From the NCBI RefSeq assembly GCF_014637725.1, contig NZ_BMFC01000010.1:62001-126000 (forward strand): 64,000 bases of DNA, written 5' to 3'. Shown in pieces: positions 9,029 through 19,645 of this stretch. Position numbers and translations under genes: made by a program. This DNA comes from Marivita lacus. Its GTDB lineage: Bacteria; Pseudomonadota; Alphaproteobacteria; Rhodobacterales; Rhodobacteraceae. Below the pieces are notes generated by a model. It was not told the origin of the DNA and did no database searches. It saw nothing but the letters and a program-made list of their open reading frames with translations. The number at the start of each line of letters is the position of its first letter. Within the stretch, counting starts at the first letter, position 1.

Positions 9029-9220
9029 TTACCCGTCGGTCGCAGCCTCTGCCGCCGGTTCATCAGCGGTTCCCTCGCCCGGCTCATTGCCTTGGGCGGC
9101 GAGATTCGCGAGGTAGGCGAGGAACAGGGCCGCCGCAAAGATACCGCCCGCGATCATTCCCCAGATGGCTGGGCGATGGCGTTTCTTCTGTTTTTCGACG
9201 TTTGTTGATGGAGCGGACAT
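9029..9220 (-). CDS. 63-aa single-helix membrane protein under an EcfG-type promoter
   Basis: A basic N-terminus (residues 1-18) precedes one hydrophobic helix (about 20-42) and an acidic tail rich in Glu and Ala. No family recognised. The gene is preceded at 9255-9279 by a perfect EcfG-type promoter on the same strand, which puts it in the general stress regulon by inference. Confidence 0.6.
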   Translation of the reverse strand: MSAPSTNVEKQKKRHRPAIWGMIAGGIFAAALFLAYLANLAAQGNEPGEGTADEPAAEAATDG

Positions 9221-9254: not shown

Positions 9255-9279
9255 AACGCATGGATCGGGCAGGGGTTCC
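9255..9279 (-). promoter_or_regulatory. EcfG-type (general stress sigma factor) promoter
   Basis: On the minus strand: GGAAC, 16-nt spacer, CGTT. The -10 element ends 34 nt before the ATG at 9220. The element matches the consensus seen between phyR and nepR in this window exactly in both boxes and in spacing. Confidence 0.75.
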
Positions 9280-9322
9280 CCTTTTCGGGAGCCCGGTCCT
9301 CTGTCGGGTGGCGCCGCGCCGC

Positions 9323-10036
9323 TCAGGCCAGTTCGTCGCGCATGGCGCGGGTCTGGTTGCGTTCGCTGCGATAGGCGTTTGCGGCACTCACCAGCGCGCG
9401 GAAAATGGCGCGTTGTCGGTGCGCGTAGAACAGGTGTTCGGGGTGCCATTGCACGCCCAGTGCAAAGGGATCGCGCACCCGTTCGATCGCCTGCACCATG
9501 CCGCTCGTGTCCCGTGCCGAAACCCGCAACCCTTGCCCCAGACGGTCGACCGCCTGTGTGTGCAGCGCGTTGACCTTCATCGGCTCATCGCCGCTGATCA
9601 GCGACAGGTGGGTGTCGTCCTCGACGCAGATTTCGCGCTTGGGCAGGATGGTCTTGATCTTGCCTTCGACACCGAAAGTTGCCCAAGCGTCCTGATCGAG
9701 CGTACCGCCAAGCGCCACGTTGAGCATCTGCGACCCCCGGCAGATGCCCAGCACGGGGATGTTGCGCTCCAGCGCGGCTTCGGCCAAGCCGCGTTCCAAG
9801 TCGTCGCGCGCGTGGTCGAGCCGCAGCGAAATGCCCAGCTTGCCGCCATAGAGATCGGGGCCGATATCGTCACCGCCGCCAATGATCAACCCGTCCACAT
9901 CTTCGAGATCGGCAACGCGCCCGACACCCCAGCGGACACCGCGCCCGCCGGTGATCCACAGGTTCAGGTTGACCAGCGGGTAGACGCGCCACCCGCTGCG
10001 GGACGAGGTCGTGACGGCGATCATCGGACGGCTCAT
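9323..10036 (-). CDS. Class I glutamine amidotransferase-like hydrolase (peptidase C26, PuuD-like)
   Basis: A 237-aa protein with the catalytic nucleophile in LGICRGSQM (Cys99) and the GVQWHPEH motif near 205 that supplies His and Glu of the triad. It resembles gamma-glutamyl-GABA hydrolase (PuuD) and other C26 peptidases that cleave gamma-glutamyl bonds. ATG 10036 overlaps the amidoligase stop as ATGA, and this is the last gene of a seven-gene stress operon. Inference: it removes or transfers gamma-glutamyl or amide groups on the product of the adjacent amidoligase. Confidence 0.82.
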   Translation of the reverse strand: MSRPMIAVTTSSRSGWRVYPLVNLNLWITGGRGVRWGVGRVADLEDVDGLIIGGGDDIGPDLYGGKLGISLRLDHARDDLERGLAEAALERNIPVLGICRGSQMLNVALGGTLDQDAWATFGVEGKIKTILPKREICVEDDTHLSLISGDEPMKVNALHTQAVDRLGQGLRVSARDTSGMVQAIERVRDPFALGVQWHPEHLFYAHRQRAIFRALVSAANAYRSERNQTRAMRDELA

Positions 10037-11004
10037 ATATCGGCCCTCGCATCGTGGTCCTGCAGCAGCGTGTCGATCGTGTTGATCCAGACCGAGCCGC
10101 GTTCGAACCACGCGGCATCATGGGCCTTCCATGCGTCCTGCAGAGCGGCCAGCAAGGTGCGGTTCGCGGCCACCAGCTCGACCTGCCGCCAGAGCTGCCA
10201 GGGTTGCCACAGCGACCAGTCGGCCTCGTCGATGCGGCTGTCGGGCAGGCGGAAATGAAAGGTCGGCCGCGCGGTCGTCTTGTCGTCTATGTCGAACAGG
10301 TCGGCAAAGAGATCGGGTTCCGCATGTTTGAAGAGCGGCAGCAGATCAAGGCTCAGATTGCGGCTTTTGATATGTACGGCACTCATGCGCATCACGTCGG
10401 CAAGGCTGTCATTGCGGTTGTTCACCAGATCCGAGATCATCGCCTTGGGCCATGCTCCGATGAAGGGCATCATCCGGCGGGTCGTGTCGACCTGTTCCTT
10501 GTCGCGCAGCCACCGCTCAAGCAGCGCGTAGGCGGTGATCGTGTCGAGGGTGAAGCGGTGGTCGGAGGCCACGACCTCGGGATTGAGGTGCACGCCAAAA
10601 CCCAGCAGGACGCCGCTGCGTGAGCCCATGGCTCCGATGCGCCGCAGCCCTGTGCAGATGGTGTTGAACTCCTCCAGCTGCTCCCGCCTCAGAGGCGGGG
10701 TCACGACCTCGACCGGGATCAGGCCGCGCACGGCGTCCAGTCCCTCTTTGAGAAAGGGCAGGTCGTCGCGTTTGCGCAGCGATATGTCCAGTTCCACCTC
10801 GATGTCGCCAAAGCGGGTGCCGCTGACCACGACGCTGTGATCGCCGCGATCCTCTACGGTGCCGCCGAATTCCTTGGCGATCAGGCTGCCGGTCTCCAGT
10901 TCCGTCGGTCCGGCAAATTCGATCTCGATGCCGCAAAGACGTTCCTCGCCATCTGCGGTCTGTTCCATCGGCAGGGCAGGAAAGGTGGGTCTGGTCTGGA
11001 TCAT
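10033..11004 (-). CDS. Amidoligase family protein (GS-fold COOH-NH2 ligase)
   Basis: A 323-aa protein with an early CGIEIEF motif (Glu27, Glu29) and GFGVHLNPEVV. These are the metal/nucleotide-binding features of the predicted 'putative amidoligase' family, related to glutamine synthetase and gamma-Glu-Cys ligase. Such enzymes should join a carboxylate to an amine using ATP. ATG 11004 lies 1 nt after the AI-2E permease stop, and its own stop overlaps the glutamine-amidotransferase start (ATGA). The substrate is unknown; the pairing with a C26 peptidase suggests a gamma-glutamyl peptide or an amide-linked envelope modification. Confidence 0.8.
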   Translation of the reverse strand: MIQTRPTFPALPMEQTADGEERLCGIEIEFAGPTELETGSLIAKEFGGTVEDRGDHSVVVSGTRFGDIEVELDISLRKRDDLPFLKEGLDAVRGLIPVEVVTPPLRREQLEEFNTICTGLRRIGAMGSRSGVLLGFGVHLNPEVVASDHRFTLDTITAYALLERWLRDKEQVDTTRRMMPFIGAWPKAMISDLVNNRNDSLADVMRMSAVHIKSRNLSLDLLPLFKHAEPDLFADLFDIDDKTTARPTFHFRLPDSRIDEADWSLWQPWQLWRQVELVAANRTLLAALQDAWKAHDAAWFERGSVWINTIDTLLQDHDARADI

Positions 11005-11005
11005 G

Positions 11006-12031
11006 TCACGCCTGTGTTGGTGCCAAATCGGTGTCGGGTTGCGGTTGCGGCTGCGGTCGGTGCGCAAGGTAGGCTATCAGCCAAACCAGCATTGGCAGAG
11101 AGATGATCCCACCGATCGGCCCCCAGAGCCACAGGCCGAACAGGATCGCGAGGAACACCACAAGCGGGTTCAGTTGCAGCCGTTGTCCCACAAGGGTCGG
11201 CGTCACGAATTGAGCTTCAGTCATGTTCAACAAAAGATAGCTCAGGCCCGGCAAAAGCGAATAGGCACCGCCAAATTCGGAAATGCCGACAACGCCAAGT
11301 GCCAGCAAAAGCAGAACCGGCCCGAGATAGAGCACGAAGTTCAGAATGAACGCCGCCGTGGCCCAGAGGATCGGGTTGGGCACCCCGATCAGGGTCATCG
11401 CGGCAAACACGGCGAGGCCAAGCCCGCCATTGATCGCGGTTACGGTCAAAAAATAATGCGACACCGCCTTGTCTGCGTGTCGCAATGCCTCTGACTGTTT
11501 TTTGAAGGTGCCGTAGATCTCGTTCTGGGTCAGGGTGAAAAAGAAGAATGTGCCGGCAAAGGTGAGCAGTTGTGCTGCAAAGTTTGGCGCCACCCAAAGC
11601 GCGTCGAGCAGTGTCGGCATCGCGTCTTCCACGGCATCGCCTTCCTTGGCCAGACGCTCCGCGATCTCGGTTTGCATGGTCTCCAGCCCCCGGATGGCGC
11701 GGCTGGCCTCGATCACCCACCAGCGGATCTCGTCTTCGATCCGGGGTACCTGCGCGATCAGGTCCATGACGATGGGGCCAAGACCGGCGATCAGCAGCAC
11801 TGTGACCGCGCCGACGCAGACAAGGCTGATGCTGGCGCTGACCGCACGGGGAATACCCAGACGGGCCAGCAGGCGCATCCCCGGAGCGGCGATAATCGCC
11901 ACGACTAGGCCAAGCGCCACCGGGGCAAGCAACCCCTTGGCCAGCTGCATGGCCGCCACCACGGTCACAAGCGCCACGAGGGCGATGCAGACGGTCTGTA
12001 CGCGGGCAAGGGTTTCAGGGGGTGTGATCAT
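11006..12031 (-). CDS. AI-2E family transporter (PerM/YdiK-like permease)
   Basis: A 341-aa multi-spanning membrane protein. Hydrophobic segments near residues 14-50 and 65-90 precede a soluble loop with FAQLLTFAGTFFFFTL and the C-terminal core NPILWATAAFILNFVLYLGPVLLLL, typical of the AI-2E exporter superfamily. It overlaps the DUF3618 gene upstream (ATGA) and is followed by the amidoligase after 1 nt. Members include Na+/H+ antiporters and exporters of small signals. The link to an amidoligase suggests it may export that enzyme's product, which is inference. Confidence 0.82.
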   Translation of the reverse strand: MITPPETLARVQTVCIALVALVTVVAAMQLAKGLLAPVALGLVVAIIAAPGMRLLARLGIPRAVSASISLVCVGAVTVLLIAGLGPIVMDLIAQVPRIEDEIRWWVIEASRAIRGLETMQTEIAERLAKEGDAVEDAMPTLLDALWVAPNFAAQLLTFAGTFFFFTLTQNEIYGTFKKQSEALRHADKAVSHYFLTVTAINGGLGLAVFAAMTLIGVPNPILWATAAFILNFVLYLGPVLLLLALGVVGISEFGGAYSLLPGLSYLLLNMTEAQFVTPTLVGQRLQLNPLVVFLAILFGLWLWGPIGGIISLPMLVWLIAYLAHRPQPQPQPDTDLAPTQA

Positions 12032-12771
12032 CTGGCCGCATGGGACGGTTCGGACATTTCCGCGCTGGCCTTGCGCAGGCCGGTTTCGACGGCGTCCTTG
12101 CCCTGACGCTCAAGCTGCGCAAGCTCGGCCTGCAACAGCGCCTCGGCATCGCGCATCATCCTGTCGCGCGCCGCACCCATCAGGTCGGCCTCGGCCTTGG
12201 TCGAGGGCAGAAGGGCGCCGATCAGTGCGCCGATCCCGGCCGCAATCACCCCGGTCAGAAAGGGCTGGCCCTGATGCGTCTTGCGCGCCTGTTCAGCGCT
12301 GCGCCGGGCTTGACGGTCCAGCTTTTCCTGCGCCTCGATCACCTTGAGCCGCGCCTCGGTCACACGGGCGCGCGCGTCCGGCGGCAGCTTGTCCAGCCCC
12401 TTGTCCAGCGACTTGCGCAGCACCGAGGCGGATTGTGCCTTGGCACCTTGTTGCACAGGACGTGTCAGACGGGCAGTGCGGTCCTGCTGCGCGTCCATCT
12501 GGTCGCGTTCTGTGGGCGGTGTTTTGCCGTTCCGGCTGCTGTTGAGGGCGATCATCGCCGCGCCGATGCCGACCAGCACAAAGCCCGAGGGCGCGTTTTT
12601 GGCCCCGTCGAACAAAGCCTTGGTGAGGGTCTGGCCAAGATCGGCGGTCTGGCCCATGGTGCGCTGTGCTGCAGCCTGCGGATTGACCAACGCCGACAAT
12701 GCACTGATCCGGTCGGTCAGCTGCGCGCGGTGTGTTTCGGCGTTGCGTTCGAGTTCTTCTGCGTCAGGCAC
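12028..12771 (-). CDS. DUF3618-containing membrane-associated protein
   Basis: A 247-aa protein. The N-terminus (EELERNAETHRAQLTDRISALSALV) fits DUF3618, then come two short hydrophobic stretches (about residues 63-77 and 170-187) and long charged, probably helical segments. GTG 12771 is preceded by AAAGGAGG and overlaps the upstream gene's stop by 8 bp. Its neighbours are other small envelope proteins of the stress operon. Function unknown; likely an inner-membrane scaffold or stress protein. Confidence 0.7.
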   Translation of the reverse strand: MPDAEELERNAETHRAQLTDRISALSALVNPQAAAQRTMGQTADLGQTLTKALFDGAKNAPSGFVLVGIGAAMIALNSSRNGKTPPTERDQMDAQQDRTARLTRPVQQGAKAQSASVLRKSLDKGLDKLPPDARARVTEARLKVIEAQEKLDRQARRSAEQARKTHQGQPFLTGVIAAGIGALIGALLPSTKAEADLMGAARDRMMRDAEALLQAELAQLERQGKDAVETGLRKASAEMSEPSHAAR

Positions 12772-13165
12772 GCGCGGCCTCCTTTATGGTGTCGATGTCG
12801 GTCTTGACCTGTTTGATCGCTCGTTTGGGGGCCAGTGAAGTTGCCGACAGATGTGATTTGCCGATCAGGGCAAGGATCAGGGCGATGACGAGAAAGGCCA
12901 CGGCCACGATCAGGGCCGCCCAGTGATGGTCCACTCCCAATGCCGCGACGCTCAGAACAGCGGCCACGGCCAGCGCGCTGAGGCCGACAAAGGCGACAAG
13001 GGCCGCAAGGCCGAACAACAGAAGCCCGGAGCCTGCACGGCTGGCACTGTCGGAGAGTTCGCGGCGGGCCAGTTGCAATTCCGTCCGCAAAAGCGCGCGC
13101 GCTTCGGCCACGATGCTGCCGATCAGGCTGGGCAGATCGCCGGGTCCGGGGTTCGGCTGTGTCAC
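12764..13165 (-). CDS. Phage holin family / actinobacterial holin-X-like membrane protein
   Basis: A 133-aa protein. An N-terminal amphipathic segment (SLIGSIVAEARALLRTELQLARREL) is followed by two strong transmembrane helices, as in the Holin-X family (PF07332), which despite its name is common in chromosomal stress operons. I chose the GTG at 13165: AAGGAGG lies 7 nt upstream and it overlaps the preceding stop as GTGA. An ATG 39 nt further upstream is possible but would eat into the previous gene. Confidence 0.72.
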   Translation of the reverse strand: MTQPNPGPGDLPSLIGSIVAEARALLRTELQLARRELSDSASRAGSGLLLFGLAALVAFVGLSALAVAAVLSVAALGVDHHWAALIVAVAFLVIALILALIGKSHLSATSLAPKRAIKQVKTDIDTIKEAARA

Positions 13166-13599
13166 TGCTGCGCCTCCTTGGATGGCTGGAGGTGTCCGGA
13201 CCACGGGTCAAACGCGTCCTCTTCGGATGTCTGCGAGCCGCCCCCCGATTTCAGAAACCGCGCGGCGGCGAATCCGGCAAGCGCCGCGCCACCGAGGAAG
13301 AGCAGTGGATTCCTGCGGGCAAAGACGGCGACATCATCGACCATCTCGTCAACGGAAGTGTCCTGGAAACGCGCGGCAATGACGTTGATCTGCGCGCCAA
13401 GCTGCGCAAGGGCCGCATCCTGAAGCGTGTCAGGGTGGCTGTCCTGACCTGCGGTTTCCGCCTCTTCAGTACCTACGGTCCGCTGGCGCGCGGTTTCGGC
13501 CTGGTCGCGGGCCGACGCTGCAAGCCGCATACGCGCATCGTGCGCCATGTCGGGGGAGCTTTCGCTGGCGGCATGCAATGCCTTTGGATTGGTGCTCAT
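13162..13599 (-). CDS. DUF883/YqjD-like small membrane protein
   Basis: A 145-aa mostly hydrophilic, Ala- and Gln-rich protein with a helical middle (residues 60-95) and one C-terminal hydrophobic stretch preceded by ARRNPLLFLGGAALAGFAAARFL. The RRNPxxxLGxAAxAGF pattern resembles ElaB/YqjD-type (DUF883) proteins that tether to the inner membrane through a C-terminal helix. GGAGGCTGAC precedes ATG 13599. Second gene of the stress operon. Confidence 0.65.
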   Translation of the reverse strand: MSTNPKALHAASESSPDMAHDARMRLAASARDQAETARQRTVGTEEAETAGQDSHPDTLQDAALAQLGAQINVIAARFQDTSVDEMVDDVAVFARRNPLLFLGGAALAGFAAARFLKSGGGSQTSEEDAFDPWSGHLQPSKEAQQ

Positions 13600-13623
13600 G
13601 TCAGCCTCCTTGATATTAACAGT

Positions 13624-14061
13624 TCACACGGCTTCGAAAATCTGAGCGACCTTGTTGCGCAGCCCGTCGCGATGGCCCAGCAAGACGCCGTGCAGATCAT
13701 CGTCCGGCGCCAGACACGCGATGACCTCATCGTAGCGTTTCACCACGATCTCTTCGCCGATGACGATGGCATCGAGCGCGTTTCGATCATCGTCCGCGAA
13801 GACGTCCCGCAGACGGGCCGCGATCTGGTCGCCCGCAATCATATCCGTGCAGTCCCGATCGAGAGGGATGTCCCGGTCAGAAGCGAGGCGGTCGAGTTCT
13901 TCGATATCCCTGAGGTGCTGTTCCGCGATCTCGGCCACAAGCCTGCGGATCGACGCGGGCGCCCGGTCGACAATCAGATCATACCCATGGCCGATATCGA
14001 CCAATCGGTCGAGCAAGGCCTGCACACGATCTTGCAGCGTGTGTGATGATGTGATGGGCAT
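13624..14061 (-). CDS. DUF2383 four-helix-bundle protein
   Basis: A 145-aa soluble protein predicted mostly helical, with LQDRVQALLDRLVDIGHGYDLIVDRA and a C-terminal HRDGLRNKVAQI. This fits the DUF2383 / PA2169-like ferritin-type four-helix-bundle family, which may bind metal. ATG 14061 has a GAGG site; the upstream extension of the frame is not protein-like. It is the first gene of the seven-gene minus-strand operon, 24 nt downstream of an EcfG-type -10 box. Confidence 0.7.
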   Translation of the reverse strand: MPITSSHTLQDRVQALLDRLVDIGHGYDLIVDRAPASIRRLVAEIAEQHLRDIEELDRLASDRDIPLDRDCTDMIAGDQIAARLRDVFADDDRNALDAIVIGEEIVVKRYDEVIACLAPDDDLHGVLLGHRDGLRNKVAQIFEAV

Positions 14062-14085
14062 TCTGGCCTCCCCGGTTGTGGATAG

Positions 14086-14110
14086 AACGCGCGGGAGGGG
14101 ACAGAGTTCC
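14086..14110 (-). promoter_or_regulatory. EcfG-type promoter of the seven-gene stress operon
   Basis: On the minus strand, GGAAC (14110-14106), a 16-nt spacer, and CGTT (14089-14086). It sits 24 nt before the DUF2383 start, the usual distance for a promoter. Confidence 0.75.
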
Positions 14111-14260
14111 CGAATGGGGATTCGGGTGCCGCACTTGGGCGGATGTTGCCACTTTACCTCAACAGTCTCGGTGCTTTCAGGCATGACATCAGACAGTGTG
14201 AAACGTGCGATGTCATTGATACGCCCGGATCTGTGGTCTCAAGTTTTTCAGGACACATCG

Positions 14261-14989
14261 TCAGATCAGCGGGCGTTTCAGCGGCTTCACGCCCTTGGCA
14301 TAACCCAGTTCCGCAAGTTCTTCGGGTCGATGTACCGTCAGGGTATCACCCGACCAGGTCGCGAACCCCTCGACACGCAGCTTGGCCAGCGTCTTGTTGG
14401 TATGAACAAGCGACAGACCCATGGCATCGGCGATATCCTGCTGCCGATAGGGCATGGGAACCTGGTCGTTTTCGTTGAGCCCGAGAGCCGTCAGGCGTTT
14501 GTAAAACCGGTTCAACACCCAAGCGATTTTTGCAATTCCGTCCATCTGGCCCACGGCGGAGAGCATCTCGCCCAGCAGGAATTCCTCGCTGGCGGCCAGA
14601 TGTGTGAGGCCGAAGGACCGGCGCGGGTGATTTTTGAAAAGGTCCCACAACTCGGAGCGGTTGAACACACACATCGTCATGCGGGTCGTAGCCTCGACGG
14701 AATGTTTCATCTCGCCCATCACCCCGCTTTGCAGACCGATGAAATCACCCGGCAAAATGAACCCGACAACCTGTCGGCGTCCGTCCTCAAGCGTCTTGTA
14801 GCGCAGGCCCATGCCTTCGAGCGCGGTGTAGAGCTGCGTCGACGATGCCCCTTCGGCCAGGATTTCGGAGCCCGGTTGCGCGACGAATTCGCCGGTTTTG
14901 AACCTCGACATGAACTGAACTTCGTCGTTCGACATGTCCTCGAAAAGATCGAGCTGCCGAAGTGGACACTTCTCGCACATCGTTGTCAT
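14261..14989 (-). CDS. Crp/Fnr family transcriptional regulator
   Basis: A 242-aa protein with an N-terminal cNMP-binding-like barrel (GDFIGLQSGV near residue 81) and a C-terminal winged helix containing RQQDIADAMGLSLVHTNKTLAKLR. The N-terminus has MCEKCPLR (Cys5, Cys8), and one further Cys at 107. That is one short of the four cysteines expected for an Fnr [4Fe-4S] cluster, so classical oxygen sensing is doubtful. AGCGAGG precedes ATG 14989. Divergent from the pseudo-receiver gene. Its target genes are unknown. Confidence 0.85.
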   Translation of the reverse strand: MTTMCEKCPLRQLDLFEDMSNDEVQFMSRFKTGEFVAQPGSEILAEGASSTQLYTALEGMGLRYKTLEDGRRQVVGFILPGDFIGLQSGVMGEMKHSVEATTRMTMCVFNRSELWDLFKNHPRRSFGLTHLAASEEFLLGEMLSAVGQMDGIAKIAWVLNRFYKRLTALGLNENDQVPMPYRQQDIADAMGLSLVHTNKTLAKLRVEGFATWSGDTLTVHRPEELAELGYAKGVKPLKRPLI

Positions 14990-15070
14990 GGCACCTCGCT
15001 ATGTCATAGATTAATGCAGGAAAAATCGGGGGATGTCATACATGGTGAAACGCTGTGGGGGCCTTGCGAC

Positions 15071-15439
15071 ATGACCGACATGATGACATCCGTTCCAAAG
15101 ACCTTGATCGTCTCGAACAACATGATCGAAGCGGATGATCTGACCGAAATGTTGACCGACCAAGGTCTGGGTCCGGTGATGCACGCGCGCGATCTGAATG
15201 ATGCGTCGCGGGTGCTGACCGAAGCCGGAGGCAATCTGCGATTGATGATGTGCGGCTTGTCTTTGCATCTGCACGAGGTCAACGAATTTCTGGCCGAGAT
15301 CGATTTGCCCGGGATGTCGCTTGTCGTGATCGACGGCCCCGAGGAATTCTCCGAGAGGGAAGGGGCGGGCGTTTTGCTGCGCCCCTTCTCGACTCGGGAT
15401 GTCATGGCCGCCCTGTCACGTCTTGGCTTGCCGGACTAG
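15071..15439 (+). CDS. Receiver-like protein lacking the phospho-acceptor Asp (pseudo-receiver)
   Basis: A 122-aa protein with the length and pattern of a CheY fold: KTLIVSNNMIEADDL (beta1 with acidic pair), LRLMMCGLSL (beta3), SLVVIDGP (beta4), and GVLLRPFSTRDVMAAL (beta5-alpha5). At beta3, where the phospho-acceptor Asp should be, the residues are Met60-Cys61, and the conserved Lys is Arg104. It is therefore probably a non-phosphorylated signalling adaptor. ATG 15071 was preferred; an ATG at 15014 is possible. It is divergent from the Crp/Fnr gene; stop codons overlap convergently with the DUF883 gene (CTAG). Confidence 0.6.
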   Translation: MTDMMTSVPKTLIVSNNMIEADDLTEMLTDQGLGPVMHARDLNDASRVLTEAGGNLRLMMCGLSLHLHEVNEFLAEIDLPGMSLVVIDGPEEFSEREGAGVLLRPFSTRDVMAALSRLGLPD

Positions 15440-15726
15440 GTCCGACGGGTGAGGGCAAGACCCAGGACCATTCCCACACCCAAGGCTCCCAGAACCGCGA
15501 GGGTCGGATTGCGGCGCACGGCGCTGTCGAATTCGCCCTGCATGTTCTGCGCCTGATCCGCAGTGCGTTCAACGGCTTGGACGGCGGTGTCGCGCACACT
15601 GTCTGCCGCGTCCTGCACGTTGTCCTGTGCGTATGAAACAGCGTCGCGCAGCTTCTCTGCGGCGCGGCCTTCGAGGCCTGCATTGTCGTCTGATTTTGAG
15701 TGACGGGCTGTGGATGTTGATGCCAT
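15436..15726 (-). CDS. DUF883/YqjD-like stress protein
   Basis: A 96-aa protein with helical repeats rich in Ala, Asp and Gln ([28 protein letters not shown]), then [22 protein letters not shown] as a C-terminal membrane helix. This is the ElaB/YqjD arrangement; in E. coli such proteins anchor ribosomes to the membrane in stationary phase. GAAGGAGA precedes ATG 15726 and a perfect EcfG-type promoter sits 26 nt further upstream. Confidence 0.75.
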
Positions 15727-15752
15727 TGTTTGTCTCCTTCTATCTCACACCC

Positions 15753-15777
15753 AACGCTGCGACCGGGTCAAAGTTCC
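15753..15777 (-). promoter_or_regulatory. EcfG-type promoter of the DUF883-like gene
   Basis: Minus strand GGAAC (15777-15773), 16-nt spacer, CGTT (15756-15753). On the plus strand an adjoining GGAAC (15780-15784) is followed after 16 nt by GGTT (15801-15804), a weaker version that could drive the DUF1328 gene. Confidence 0.75.
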
Positions 15778-15842
15778 TCGGAACCATCGGTGGGAATGGT
15801 GGTTGTTCAAGCAGTTACAGCCAACAATGGAAGGACTTAGAT

Positions 15843-16004
15843 ATGCTTTACTGGGCAGCCATCTTTCTGGTGATCGCGCTGATCGCCGCTGTGTTCGGAT
15901 TTGGCGGCATCGCGTCGGCATCGGCGGGAATCGCACAAATCCTGTTTGTGGTATTCCTTGTTCTTTTCATCGCAACGCTCATCATGCGGGCGGTGCGGTC
16001 GTGA
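15843..16004 (+). CDS. DUF1328 (YtjA-like) small membrane protein
   Basis: A 53-aa protein, [22 protein letters not shown] and then a second hydrophobic helix ending in MRAVRS. This two-helix, Gly-Phe-Gly-Gly-containing protein fits the DUF1328 family (YtjA), commonly induced by stress. GGAAGGA precedes ATG 15843. A possible EcfG-like promoter (GGAAC-N16-GGTT) lies 39 nt upstream. Confidence 0.8.
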
Positions 16005-16008
16005 CAGA

Positions 16009-16034
16009 AAACCGGAGCGGGGGCGCTCCGGTTT
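16009..16034. terminator. Bidirectional hairpin terminator between DUF1328 and phyR
   Basis: An 11-bp perfect stem, AAACCGGAGCG / CGCTCCGGTTT, with a 4-nt G-rich loop. Both genes converge on it. Confidence 0.8.
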
Positions 16035-16048
16035 CTTGGGTCTGCCTG

Positions 16049-16858
16049 TCAGGCTTTCAGCGTTTCGGTGGATGAAAAGAACATCGCCTGGCTGACCGCA
16101 GAGCGGACCTGTTCCTCGGTATAGGGTTTGGAAATAAGAAATGCCGGTTCCGGCCCTTCGCCCGTCAGCAGCCGTTCGGGGAACGCGGTGATGAAGATGA
16201 CGGGAATATCCGGATCGTCCTCGACGATCTTGTTCACGGCATCCACTCCGCTTGATCCATCGGCCAGCTGGATATCCGACATGATGAGGTGTGGCTTTTC
16301 GGTGTTGTAAAGATGCACCGCCGCATCAGCCGTCCGGGCGATCCCGGTCACTGCGTGGCCCATATCCGACACGATCGCTTCGAGGTCCATGGCGATGATC
16401 GCTTCGTCTTCGATGATCATCACCCGGCCGGCAAGCGACTTGGCCATCTCGGTATAAGCGATATCGACAAGGTTTTCCGCCTCATGCGCCGAGATATCGA
16501 GCACGCTTGCCACGTCTTCGAACGGCAGCTCCTCGACCGTGTGCAGCAACAGCGCCTCGCGCGTGTCAGAGGTGAGGCGCGACAGGTGTTTCTGTGCTTT
16601 TGCTGCAACACCGGTTTCACCCGCGCTGAACGTGGCGCCCGATGTGGACCAGATCGTGTGGAACACCTTGAACAGCGCCACCTTATTGGACGCTTCATGA
16701 TCGAAGATGGAAGTGTCGCTCAGGATCGCTTCGAGCGTGGCGACCGCGTATTTGTCGCCTTCGACCTGCGACCCGGTCAGAGCTCTCGCGTATCGGCGCA
16801 AGAACGGCAGGTTCGATCCGATCTTCGAGGTGAGATCCTGGGGTTGGTCGGTCGACAT
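16049..16858 (-). CDS. phyR: PhyR general stress response regulator (anti-anti-sigma factor)
   Basis: A 269-aa protein with an N-terminal sigma-like domain (about residues 10-135, including EELPFEDVASVLDISAHEAENLVDIAY) and a C-terminal receiver domain with the phospho-acceptor Asp in IMSDIQLADGSSGVD and the conserved Lys in LISKPYTEEQV. Phosphorylated PhyR is known to sequester NepR and free EcfG. ATG 16858 is preceded by GGGAGC; the upstream extension is not conserved-looking. Divergent from nepR-ecfG, with which it shares a symmetric EcfG promoter. Confidence 0.93.
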   Translation of the reverse strand: MSTDQPQDLTSKIGSNLPFLRRYARALTGSQVEGDKYAVATLEAILSDTSIFDHEASNKVALFKVFHTIWSTSGATFSAGETGVAAKAQKHLSRLTSDTREALLLHTVEELPFEDVASVLDISAHEAENLVDIAYTEMAKSLAGRVMIIEDEAIIAMDLEAIVSDMGHAVTGIARTADAAVHLYNTEKPHLIMSDIQLADGSSGVDAVNKIVEDDPDIPVIFITAFPERLLTGEGPEPAFLISKPYTEEQVRSAVSQAMFFSSTETLKA

Positions 16859-16891
16859 ATGGAAAAGCTCCCACTTTTTTTGGACATTATG

Positions 16892-16923
16892 GGAACCGAA
16901 CGCCCTAAATTGCGTTAGGTTCC
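16892..16923. promoter_or_regulatory. Symmetric bidirectional EcfG promoter (phyR / nepR-ecfG)
   Basis: Plus strand: GGAAC 16892-16896, 16-nt spacer, CGTT 16913-16916, toward nepR (ATG 49 nt on). Minus strand: GGAAC 16923-16919, 16-nt spacer, CGTT 16902-16899, toward phyR (ATG 40 nt on). Each promoter's -10 box lies inside the other's spacer, so the two cannot be occupied at once. Confidence 0.85.
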
Positions 16924-16965
16924 GGCCAACGCGCGACTTAATTGAAAAATGATCTGAAGGGCTAC

Positions 16966-17130
16966 ATGAAACAGGATCGGAAACTATCAAGCCTTGAGCA
17001 GGAAATCGAAGCCAACCTCAAGCGCGTTTACGAGGACGTCGCAGGACAAGAGGTGCCGGATCGATTTACCCAACTTCTCGAACAACTCCGCGAGGCTGAC
17101 AAGCCTTCGCCGGAGGCGTCCAATGGTTGA
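16966..17130 (+). CDS. nepR: NepR family anti-sigma factor
   Basis: A 54-aa protein with EQEIEANLKRVYEDVAGQEVPDRFTQLLEQL, the two-helix NepR core that binds EcfG and is captured by phosphorylated PhyR. ATG 16966 has a GAAGGG site; a TTG 24 nt upstream is less likely. It overlaps ecfG by 8 bp, the usual alphaproteobacterial order. Confidence 0.92.
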   Translation: MKQDRKLSSLEQEIEANLKRVYEDVAGQEVPDRFTQLLEQLREADKPSPEASNG

Positions 17131-17671
17131 TCCAAAAGACGAAATCGTTGAACACCTGAGCGCAATGCGCGCGTTTGCCATGAGTTTGACGCGCAATTCC
17201 GCGTTGGCCGATGACATGGTGCAGGATGCCTTGGTCAAAGCGTGGACCAAGATCGATTCCTACCAGCCAGGCACCAACATGCGGGCGTGGCTCTTCACGA
17301 TCCTGCGCAACACGTATTATTCGCATCACCGCAAGGCGCGTCGCGAAGTCGCGGATGTCGACGGCGAGATGGCTGCGTCACTGGCCCAGAAACCCGATCA
17401 TGACGGCCGTTTGCAGATGCGCGACTTCAACCGTGCCTTTGACAAGTTGAACGACGAACAGCGCGAGGCGCTGGTGCTGGTCGGTGCGGGTGGCTTTTCC
17501 TACGAAGAGGCCGCAGAGACCTGTGGCGTGGCCGTTGGCACCATCAAGAGCCGCGTGAACCGCGCGCGCAAGCAACTGGTCGAATTGCTCCAGATGAGCG
17601 ATGACGAGGTCATGGAGGCAACCGATCTCGTCACCACCGGCATCGTGAGCAACCAGAAAAACGTCGCCTGA
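17123..17671 (+). CDS. ecfG: EcfG-type RNA polymerase sigma factor (general stress)
   Basis: A 182-aa ECF sigma factor. Region 2 is at about residues 8-75 (NSALADDMVQDALVKAWTKI..AWLFTILRN) and region 4 at about 110-165 (LNDEQREALVLVGAGGFSYEEAAETCGVAVGTIKSRVNRARKQL). Its position after nepR and beside phyR identifies it as EcfG. It should recognise GGAAC-N16-CGTT promoters and so drives its own operon. GGAGG precedes ATG 17123. Confidence 0.93.
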   Translation: MVDPKDEIVEHLSAMRAFAMSLTRNSALADDMVQDALVKAWTKIDSYQPGTNMRAWLFTILRNTYYSHHRKARREVADVDGEMAASLAQKPDHDGRLQMRDFNRAFDKLNDEQREALVLVGAGGFSYEEAAETCGVAVGTIKSRVNRARKQLVELLQMSDDEVMEATDLVTTGIVSNQKNVA

Positions 17672-17846
17672 TCCAACGCCGATCCGTTGGACGGCAGAAA
17701 GGCACCGCCCTGTTCGTTCCTGTTTCCGAGTCCCTTCACGCGTCACAGGCCGATCCGGTCATGCGGCTTGAAACGCTTCTTTGCCCCGCAAAGGAGCGTG
17801 TTTTCGCGAGTGGGGAGCGGCCTTTCACCAGCAGCGCGGTGGGAGC

Positions 17847-18815
17847 GTGAGCCGCGGACGGTCTGCCCTTCGTCCGACGCGTATCCCGCTCACGGGGGGG
17901 TTGGATGTGCTCGTGCGGATGTGGCACCGGCAGGCGCACCTGAATCTTGGCCTGATCGCGGCGGGCATCGCGTTTTACGGGCTGTTGTCCCTGTTTCCGG
18001 GGATAACGGCAGCCGTCGCCTTTGCCGGGACATTCCTTGACCCCGAGATGCTGGTCGAGAACAGCGACGAAATCACCACATTGTTGCCAGACGCGGCGCG
18101 GACCATCGTCATGGGCCAGCTGCGCGATGTCGCCAATGCCGACAGTTCAACGCTTAGTTTTGCCGCGCTCTTCAGTCTGGGCATCGCGCTGTATTCCGCG
18201 TCCAAGGCGGTGGCCAACTTCATCGCCGGTTTGAATTTCATTTACGAAGAAAAGGAGACCCGGAACTTTTTCCTGGTCAAGGCGCTCACCATCCTGCTGA
18301 CCGCCTTTCTGATCATGGGGCTCTTGATCGCGATCATCGTCGTTGCCGCGATCCCGGTGGTTGCTGCGATTTTCGGGGATTTCGGGCTGGTCGATGACCT
18401 CGTGATGTTCCTGCGCTGGCCGTTCCTGTTCCTCATGGGGGCGTTCGGAATTGCGGTGCTTTACCGATTGGGGCCGAACCGGCGGTCGGCCAAATGGCGC
18501 TGGCTGACGCCCGGCGCGTTCATCGCGTGCGCGCTTTGGGTCTCGGGCAGCTTCGGCTTCAGCCTCTATGTGCAATCCTTCGGTTCGTACAACGAAACCT
18601 TCGGCGCGCTGGGCGGGGTGATCATCCTGCTGACGTGGCTGTGGCTTTCGGCCTTCATCGTGCTGCTGGGCGCATTGCTGGATGCAGAGCTTGAAGCGCA
18701 GACAGAACGTGACAGCACCATCGGCGAAGACCGCCCGATGGGCGAACGCGGCGCGGTCAAGGCGGACAACCTCGGCCCTGCACGCGGCGAGGAAATGACG
18801 GAACTGTCACGCTGA
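17847..18815 (+). CDS. YihY/BrkB family inner-membrane protein
   Basis: About 322 aa from the chosen start. It has at least six transmembrane helices, including LGLIAAGIAFYGLLSLFPGITAA (YihY hallmark), LLTAFLIMGLLIAIIVVAAIPVV, and a C-terminal GGVIILLTWLWLSAFIVLLGA. The tail after residue 290 is charged. I prefer GTG 17847 because GGGAGC lies just before it; a TTG at 17781 would add 22 residues. It follows ecfG by 175 bp. Its role is unknown, though YihY-like proteins are frequent in stress regulons. Confidence 0.82.
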   Translation: MSRGRSALRPTRIPLTGGLDVLVRMWHRQAHLNLGLIAAGIAFYGLLSLFPGITAAVAFAGTFLDPEMLVENSDEITTLLPDAARTIVMGQLRDVANADSSTLSFAALFSLGIALYSASKAVANFIAGLNFIYEEKETRNFFLVKALTILLTAFLIMGLLIAIIVVAAIPVVAAIFGDFGLVDDLVMFLRWPFLFLMGAFGIAVLYRLGPNRRSAKWRWLTPGAFIACALWVSGSFGFSLYVQSFGSYNETFGALGGVIILLTWLWLSAFIVLLGALLDAELEAQTERDSTIGEDRPMGERGAVKADNLGPARGEEMTELSR

Positions 18816-18978
18816 CCGGACGTTGATCCTTTGCACATGTGAGGAAGGATCAAACCGGCCACATCATAGCCTGATGAGCACCCGGTATCGCCTTCAAATC
18901 TCACGCAAACGATCCGCGCGCTGATCGGGACCACCCCGCAGCCAAGGACCATTCACGCAAGCTCTCAGGAGGTGGCAC

Positions 18979-19191
18979 ATGGCTGAACGACACAGATCGA
19001 AAGACGGACGCCGCGAAACCGAAGACGTGTTCGGCACGTCCGATGACATCGGCCAGAAGGGGCGCAGCGGCGGACGGCTGTCGCGCAACGTCGGCACCAA
19101 GGACGAAGAGAAACGCAGCACCGAGCGTCCGGCCGGTGCGACGCGGGTGACGCAAAGCCTGGAAGACGAGGAGAGCGACAGTGACGCGTAA
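18979..19191 (+). CDS. Small hydrophilic protein of unknown function
   Basis: A 70-aa highly charged, Arg/Asp/Glu/Ser-rich protein, likely disordered, without recognisable family. A strong AGGAGG precedes ATG 18979, and the next gene begins inside its 3' end (11-bp overlap), so it is a real translated gene. It is presumably co-expressed with the host-attachment-like protein. Confidence 0.65.
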   Translation: MAERHRSKDGRRETEDVFGTSDDIGQKGRSGGRLSRNVGTKDEEKRSTERPAGATRVTQSLEDEESDSDA

Positions 19192-19645
19192 ATCAGGTGT
19201 ACCGCAGGACGCATGGGTGCTGATCGCCGATGGCGAAAAAGCACTCTATCTGGTCAACAAGGGCGACGACATGGACATGAACCTGGTCGTCCGCGGCAAG
19301 GAAGAACAGGACAACCCGCAGGCGCAGGAATGGGCCGCGAACAAACCGGGGCGCTACAACAAGGGCCCGTTCGTACAGAGATCCGCCGTCGATGACACGG
19401 ATTGGCACGAGCTTGAGAAAGAGCGCTTTGCCAAGGATCTGGCGGACCAGCTTTACGAAGACGTGCACAAGGGTCGGTTCAAGGACCTGATCATCATCGC
19501 CAGCCGCCCGGTCCTGAGCGAATTGCGCAAGGAAATGCACCCCGAGGTAGCAAACTGCGTGCGGCTGGATGTGCCCAAGGTTCTGACCAATCATCCGATC
19601 GACGAGATCGAGACCCTGCTGAGCAAGGAAATGGCCAACAGCTGA
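19181..19645 (+). CDS. Host attachment family protein (AtsA/eRF1-like fold)
   Basis: A 154-aa protein beginning with GTG 19181 inside the upstream small gene. WVLIADGEKALYLVNKG at the N-terminus and FAKDLADQLYEDVHKGRFKDLIIIASRPVLSELRKEMHPEV in the middle are typical of the 'host attachment protein' family, common in proteobacteria. The name comes from a plant-associated homologue; the true biochemical role is unknown. Its place in the stress island agrees with frequent membership in general stress regulons. Confidence 0.82.
   Translation: MTRKSGVPQDAWVLIADGEKALYLVNKGDDMDMNLVVRGKEEQDNPQAQEWAANKPGRYNKGPFVQRSAVDDTDWHELEKERFAKDLADQLYEDVHKGRFKDLIIIASRPVLSELRKEMHPEVANCVRLDVPKVLTNHPIDEIETLLSKEMANS

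Follow-up and report, generated by a model that had tools for sequence, protein, structure and literature searches.

An operon of seven genes behind an EcfG-type promoter

What use would an alphaproteobacterial general stress response have for an enzyme pair predicted to make and break amide bonds, encoded behind a set of membrane proteins? The question is raised by a 64,000-nucleotide stretch of Marivita lacus (contig NZ_BMFC01000010.1, positions 62,001 to 126,000; hereafter the window), in which seven open reading frames (ORFs) run in tight series on the minus strand from 14061 to 9323 behind an exact EcfG-type promoter. A sequence-only reading had described this operon and its promoter, both of which are confirmed here, and had proposed that the seven genes perform one job in general stress, namely to make, export or trim an amide-linked product and to remodel the envelope. 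The comparisons reported here favour, by a modest degree of confidence, a different explanation, in which stress induces an operon made up of two units that are independent of each other. An amidoligase and a hydrolase of the Peptidase_C26 family (C26) would run a make-and-break cycle in the cytosol, acting on a gamma-glutamyl-type amide, and would be co-induced with a membrane unit.

Gene 1 (13624-14061; all seven genes are on the minus strand) encodes a DUF2383 protein (PF09537, 4.1e-07, 30.6 bits against a cut-off of 30.8). Gene 2 (13162-13599) encodes a small protein with a hydrophobic C-terminal segment at residues 98-116 and no credible Pfam family; it had been called DUF883-like, a resemblance confined to its layout, which is also YqjD-like, and neither the protein nor any of 12 homologues matches the DUF883 models PF05957 or PF19029. 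Gene 3 (12764-13165), with two hydrophobic segments by hydropathy, is a Phage_holin_3_6 protein (PF07332, 1.5e-27), and gene 4 (12028-12771), with one such segment, is of the DUF3618 type (PF12277, 4.7e-05, 24.0 bits against a cut-off of 24.9; six of 13 homologues match). Gene 5 (11006-12031) encodes an AI-2E family permease (PF01594, 1.8e-35), gene 6 (10033-11004) an Amidoligase_2 protein (PF12224, 2.4e-42, 145.9 bits against a gathering score of 22) with a predicted glutamine-synthetase fold, and gene 7 (9323-10036) a Peptidase_C26 protein (PF07722, 1.1e-43, 150.1 bits against 20.5), predicted to be a PuuD-like gamma-glutamyl amide hydrolase. The earlier family calls for the permease, the amidoligase, the amidotransferase-like hydrolase and the holin family hold, and those of DUF2383 and DUF3618 fall just below their cut-offs.

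The widest spacing in the operon is the 24 bp between genes 1 and 2. Genes 2 and 3 overlap by 4 bp, genes 3 and 4 by 8 bp and genes 4 and 5 by 4 bp; a 1 bp gap separates genes 5 and 6, and genes 6 and 7 overlap by 4 bp. For genes 3 and 4 we chose the GTG starts ourselves, and the ORF starts are otherwise mechanical. In comparisons with five relatives dN/dS is below 1 for all seven genes (0.089-0.104 for C26, 0.101-0.192 for the amidoligase and 0.156-0.508 for DUF2383, the fastest-evolving member), these values being rough, as many dS values exceed 1.

The promoter (14086-14110, minus strand) ends 24 bp ahead of the ATG of gene 1 and is an exact match to GGAAC-N16-CGTT, a sequence that has the boxes and the customary spacing of the EcfG consensus according to the accessible text of PMC7083833. 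Six such sites are found in the window, against a mean of 0.65 and a largest count of 4 in shuffled sequence, and all six are confined to less than 10 kb (9255-18824). The same region holds phyR (16049-16858, minus strand; PhyR family model, 3.5e-104) and the gene of the extracytoplasmic function (ECF) sigma factor itself (ecfG, 17123-17668, plus strand), both some 2-3 kb upstream of the operon.

The promoter is also conserved among relatives. We compared 19 module loci, defined as those with at least two of genes 1 to 5 (the module) and enough upstream DNA, the window included and the truncated loci L047, L048 and L049 left out, and searched them with a spacer of N16-17 in a range that reaches from 500 bp upstream of the first mechanical ORF start to 250 bp past it. 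A site is present in 16 of the 19, against a mean of 0.088 and a maximum of 5 for 500 letter-shuffled motifs, and at loci that have only the enzyme pair a site lies no more than 200 bp from the amidoligase in 12 of 58 rows (controls: mean 0.10, maximum 8; L042, L043 and L110, the last with just 290 bp of contig upstream, are excluded), although the rows of both counts are related, so that the trials are not independent. The letters of the spacer vary among species and both boxes are constant. On an 83-row amidoligase tree, built by a short search without bootstrap, presence of the site requires 10 changes across 80 rows. Control of the operon by EcfG, as the sequence-only reading had proposed, is well supported in silico.

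Distribution of the enzyme pair and the module

The amidoligase is present in all 17 genomes of the genus, in three of 20 others from the family and in two of 24 others from the class. C26 adjoins it in 21 of 21 same-genus loci (L028 is cut at a contig end) and, among the matches listed, in 81 of the 83 rows of a close-relative set, the exceptions being L049, cut at a contig end, and L097, in which C26 is in pieces. The two genes are adjacent in 23 of the 26 amidoligase-bearing genomes of a class sample (the misses are L146, L149 and L150) and in 20 of the 24 of a phylum sample, five of these 24 being common to the class sample, and in both samples the pair mostly occurs without the other five genes. 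Apart from C26, no same-strand neighbour family is found in more than three of 22 loci, mostly from other families of bacteria.

Some variations on the pair are seen. Amidoligase_2 genes without C26 within about 1.5 kb occur at L146, L149, L186 and L187. In 23 of the 83 rows, from Roseovarius, Thioclava, Lutimaribacter and others, rlmN lies less than 200 bp upstream of the pair (for example L116:6740-7987), its identity being confirmed for the representative L116 and resting on the blast cluster for the other 22. The pairs of L068 (Enemella evansiae) and L110 (Oceanospirillaceae) fall among Rhodobacterales on the tree, and these records are probably mislabelled or contaminated.

Module genes, counted with home-made profiles built from the loci studied, are absent from 58 of the 80 named pair loci, which are the best 80 of 377 and biased to close relatives. 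The 22 of 83 rows that carry the module require three changes on the tree and fall within one clade of 24 rows, a distribution compatible with one gain together with losses in L058 and L066; both of these retain an EcfG site ahead of the pair. All five module genes are present in the window and in 11 of the 16 other genus genomes, one of them with DUF2383 cut at a contig end. L025 and L035 lack AI-2E and DUF2383, L036 lacks DUF2383, L037 lacks the whole module, and L027 is cut before gene 2. Outside Marivita six species (two of Sagittula, two of Tropicibacter, a Pseudoponticoccus and Roseovarius confluentis) combine the pair with three or four module genes, the kind of co-occurrence elsewhere whose complete absence the sequence-only reading had named as a refutation; DUF2383 was found in Marivita rows only. 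The holin-DUF3618 unit is also found away from any amidoligase, at eight places in seven genomes (G022, G026 and G048 have no amidoligase match), and proteins of the AI-2E family are almost universal (present in 56 of 61 relatives and 13 of 14 controls). At one locus, L052:6209-6974, DUF3618 is split into two overlapping frames, reflecting either a frameshift or an assembly error.

With the pair mostly lacking the module, the holin-DUF3618 unit occurring elsewhere and AI-2E almost everywhere, the operon is best explained as an assembly of two units and not as an obligate seven-gene pathway. The one-job proposal, in which a single pathway would make an amide-linked envelope product, export it through the AI-2E protein and trim it, fits the tight packing and the common promoter, as well as the persistence of permease and pair together across several genera. 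We nevertheless regard it as very unlikely, as the pair is usually without the permease and is kept in L025 and L035 where AI-2E is gone, and as both enzymes look cytosolic, neither having a 19-residue window with a mean hydropathy above 1.6.

The amidoligase and its hydrolase

A structural match of the amidoligase model gives the predicted glutamine-synthetase fold, and seven residues (E27, E29, H139, N141, R246, H250 and R252) are invariant in 19 sequences; a search for solved structures with the amidoligase sequence gave none that is credible. The ATP-dependent ligase activity of the Amidoligase_2 family is itself a prediction. C26 shares 34% identity with E. coli PuuD over 219 columns (hhalign probability 99.7), and its residues C99, H198 and E200 are invariant in 15 sequences and aligned with PuuD. 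It scores 92.9 bits against the PuuD equivalog NF008471, below the curated cut-off of 266, and judged by its sequence it is a relative of PuuD, not PuuD itself.

The nearest analogue in logic would be the PuuA-PuuD pair of E. coli (glutamate-putrescine ligase and gamma-glutamyl-GABA hydrolase), in which a glutamine-synthetase-type ligase likewise stands beside a C26 protein and the hydrolases are clearly homologous. It differs in that the comparison with E. coli PuuA gave no significant sequence match to the amidoligase here, and in that the Pfam scan recognised no oxidase, dehydrogenase or putrescine importer in the operon studied. The pairing itself has precedents: Iyer et al. 2009 reportedly described an amidoligase beside a glutamine-amidotransferase-like thiol peptidase, and the Pfam comment on PF12224 reportedly notes the same thiol peptidase neighbourhood of Amidoligase_2. 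The two families, their adjacency and their order are the same in that neighbourhood as here, whereas the pair here stands under an EcfG-type promoter and is joined to membrane stress genes, a link for which the literature searched gave no paper.

C26 also matches the glutamine amidotransferase (GATase) family PF00117, at 3.7e-17. This match, with the strict adjacency and short overlaps of the pair, raises the alternative that the two proteins are one amidotransferase, in which C26 would hydrolyse glutamine and feed ammonia to the amidoligase to yield a primary amide; MurT-GatD is an example of such a synthetase-glutaminase pair. We consider this unlikely because C26 is closer to the gamma-glutamyl hydrolases than to the glutaminases of synthases, lying far nearer to Peptidase_C26 (1.1e-43) and PuuD (2.1e-26) than to the GATase of GMP synthase (guaA, 7.2e-12). 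The amidoligases that lack a neighbouring C26 also speak against it, as does the direct use of ammonia or amines by ligases of the glutamine-synthetase fold.

Ligases of this fold include Pup ligase and Dop, and a Dop structure (4b0r) is among the Foldseek matches at E 0.11. A second alternative is reversible protein modification, in which the amidoligase would decorate a protein with an amino acid, a peptide or an amine that C26 then takes off, and for which rlmN upstream of the pair offers a hint of a link to translation. The neighbourhood of the pair, however, shows no recurrent small tag protein or dedicated substrate, and the C26 homologues of known function use small gamma-glutamyl compounds, which leaves this alternative distinctly unlikely.

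A candidate make-and-break cycle in stress

A plausible course of events under the explanation by two co-induced units is that PhyR would release EcfG, which would then turn on both units from the EcfG promoter. In the first, the ligase would couple a carboxylate to an amine at the expense of ATP, the carboxylate being by analogy the gamma-carboxyl of glutamate, and the PuuD-like cysteine hydrolase would cut the same type of bond again. Between them the two enzymes may control how much of a cytosolic amide is present, such as a gamma-glutamylated amine or peptide in which a reactive or charged amine is masked in stress. In the second unit the YqjE-family protein, the DUF3618 and DUF2383 proteins and the protein with the hydrophobic C-terminal tail, together with the AI-2E permease, would protect or re-tune the inner membrane. 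A gamma-glutamyl ligase is likewise coupled to a hydrolase in Aspergillus FluG, which differs in being fused and fungal and in having a hydrolase of the amidohydrolase superfamily, according to the available portion of PMC6478659.

Several observations weigh against this explanation. Foldseek with the amidoligase model gave no match at E <= 0.001, the best being glutamine synthetase at 9.3e-3, and profile comparisons of the amidoligase with E. coli PuuA and GlnA (hhalign, one sequence each) gave a probability below 1. Genome-wide the promoter motif is unenriched (63 sites against 97 for a backwards control), so that this count is uninformative and the case for the promoter rests on position, clustering and conservation. 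Three of the 19 module loci (L059 and L063 of Sagittula and L060 of Tropicibacter) have no EcfG site, the distribution of the site over the tree does not follow that of linkage to phyR, and outside the family the pair is without the site, the single case among 24 loci of the class sample (L147) belonging to the same family. The long persistence of module and pair together in one clade could also reflect a shared job.

That EcfG control is an ancestral trait of the pair was considered and is rejected by the class sample count.

No publication linking EcfG with an amidoligase or with AI-2E, or describing the operon, was found in a literature search on partial texts. As far as that literature goes, what appears to be new is the stress wiring and the joining of the pair to a YqjE-family unit; the pair was already known. 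The earlier statement that no function is described for the combination stands for the substrate and the stress link and falls for the pairing. The amidoligase-C26 cassette is spread across Alphaproteobacteria and other Pseudomonadota and has no known substrate in the literature searched. Its conserved promoter indicates when it would be made in Roseobacteraceae, pointing to general stress as the condition for a metabolite hunt, and ecfG, phyR and the pair itself provide genetic handles for finding the metabolite.

The membrane unit and E. coli yqjCDEK

The holin label of gene 3 can be corrected, as its family is that of E. coli YqjE, which matches the same Pfam model, PF07332, at 3.5e-21. Direct comparison of the two by hhalign gives a probability of 23% (E 8.9e-4) and is firmed up by this common model. 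The E. coli yqjCDEK operon also shares general-stress sigma control, predicted here and present in E. coli, where yqjC, yqjD and yqjE are sigma-S dependent in the accessible part of PMC10746276. It differs in having no enzymes, and homology of YqjD to gene 2 (hhalign E 0.037 over 24 columns) and of YqjK to gene 4 is not significant. Assignment of genes 2-4 to the yqjCDEK operon type was tried and set aside, the YqjE member alone being found.

The same portion of PMC10746276 describes YqjD as tethering ribosomes to the membrane and reports that overexpression of YqjE arrests growth, and ElaB is described in the available text of PMC6389858 as upholding membrane integrity under oxidative stress. 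One clade links the pair to a YqjE-family unit, and in E. coli YqjE has the ribosome-tethering YqjD as its neighbour; a sister group links the pair to rlmN, which encodes a 23S rRNA methyltransferase. On this basis the pair might conceivably serve in reversible tagging of the translation or membrane machinery in stress, with ribosomes as the target; we regard this as a long shot.

Neighbouring genes

A second EcfG-type site with the exact motif (9255-9279, minus strand) lies directly after gene 7 and ahead of an ORF for a 63 amino acid membrane protein (9029-9220, minus strand), which adjoins the pair in most same-genus loci and is probably a separate stress transcript. Of the remaining sites of the window, one is ahead of a small membrane protein of 96 amino acids (15436-15726), two overlap in divergent orientation between phyR and the sigma gene, and the last is at 18800-18824. 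A Crp-type regulator gene sits between phyR and the ECF sigma gene; in Rhodobacter sphaeroides a Crp-Fnr gene is also beside phyR, and PhyR acts in membrane stress, according to the accessible text of PMC5830050. Adjoining the sigma gene are genes for a BrkB-family membrane protein (17781-18815) and a Host_attach/baeRF12 protein (19181-19645). Among the Marivita relatives, we note that an opposite-strand MATE family transporter gene (L051:9687-11123) separates C26 from the gene of the 63 amino acid protein, and several other Marivita loci show gaps of similar size at this position.

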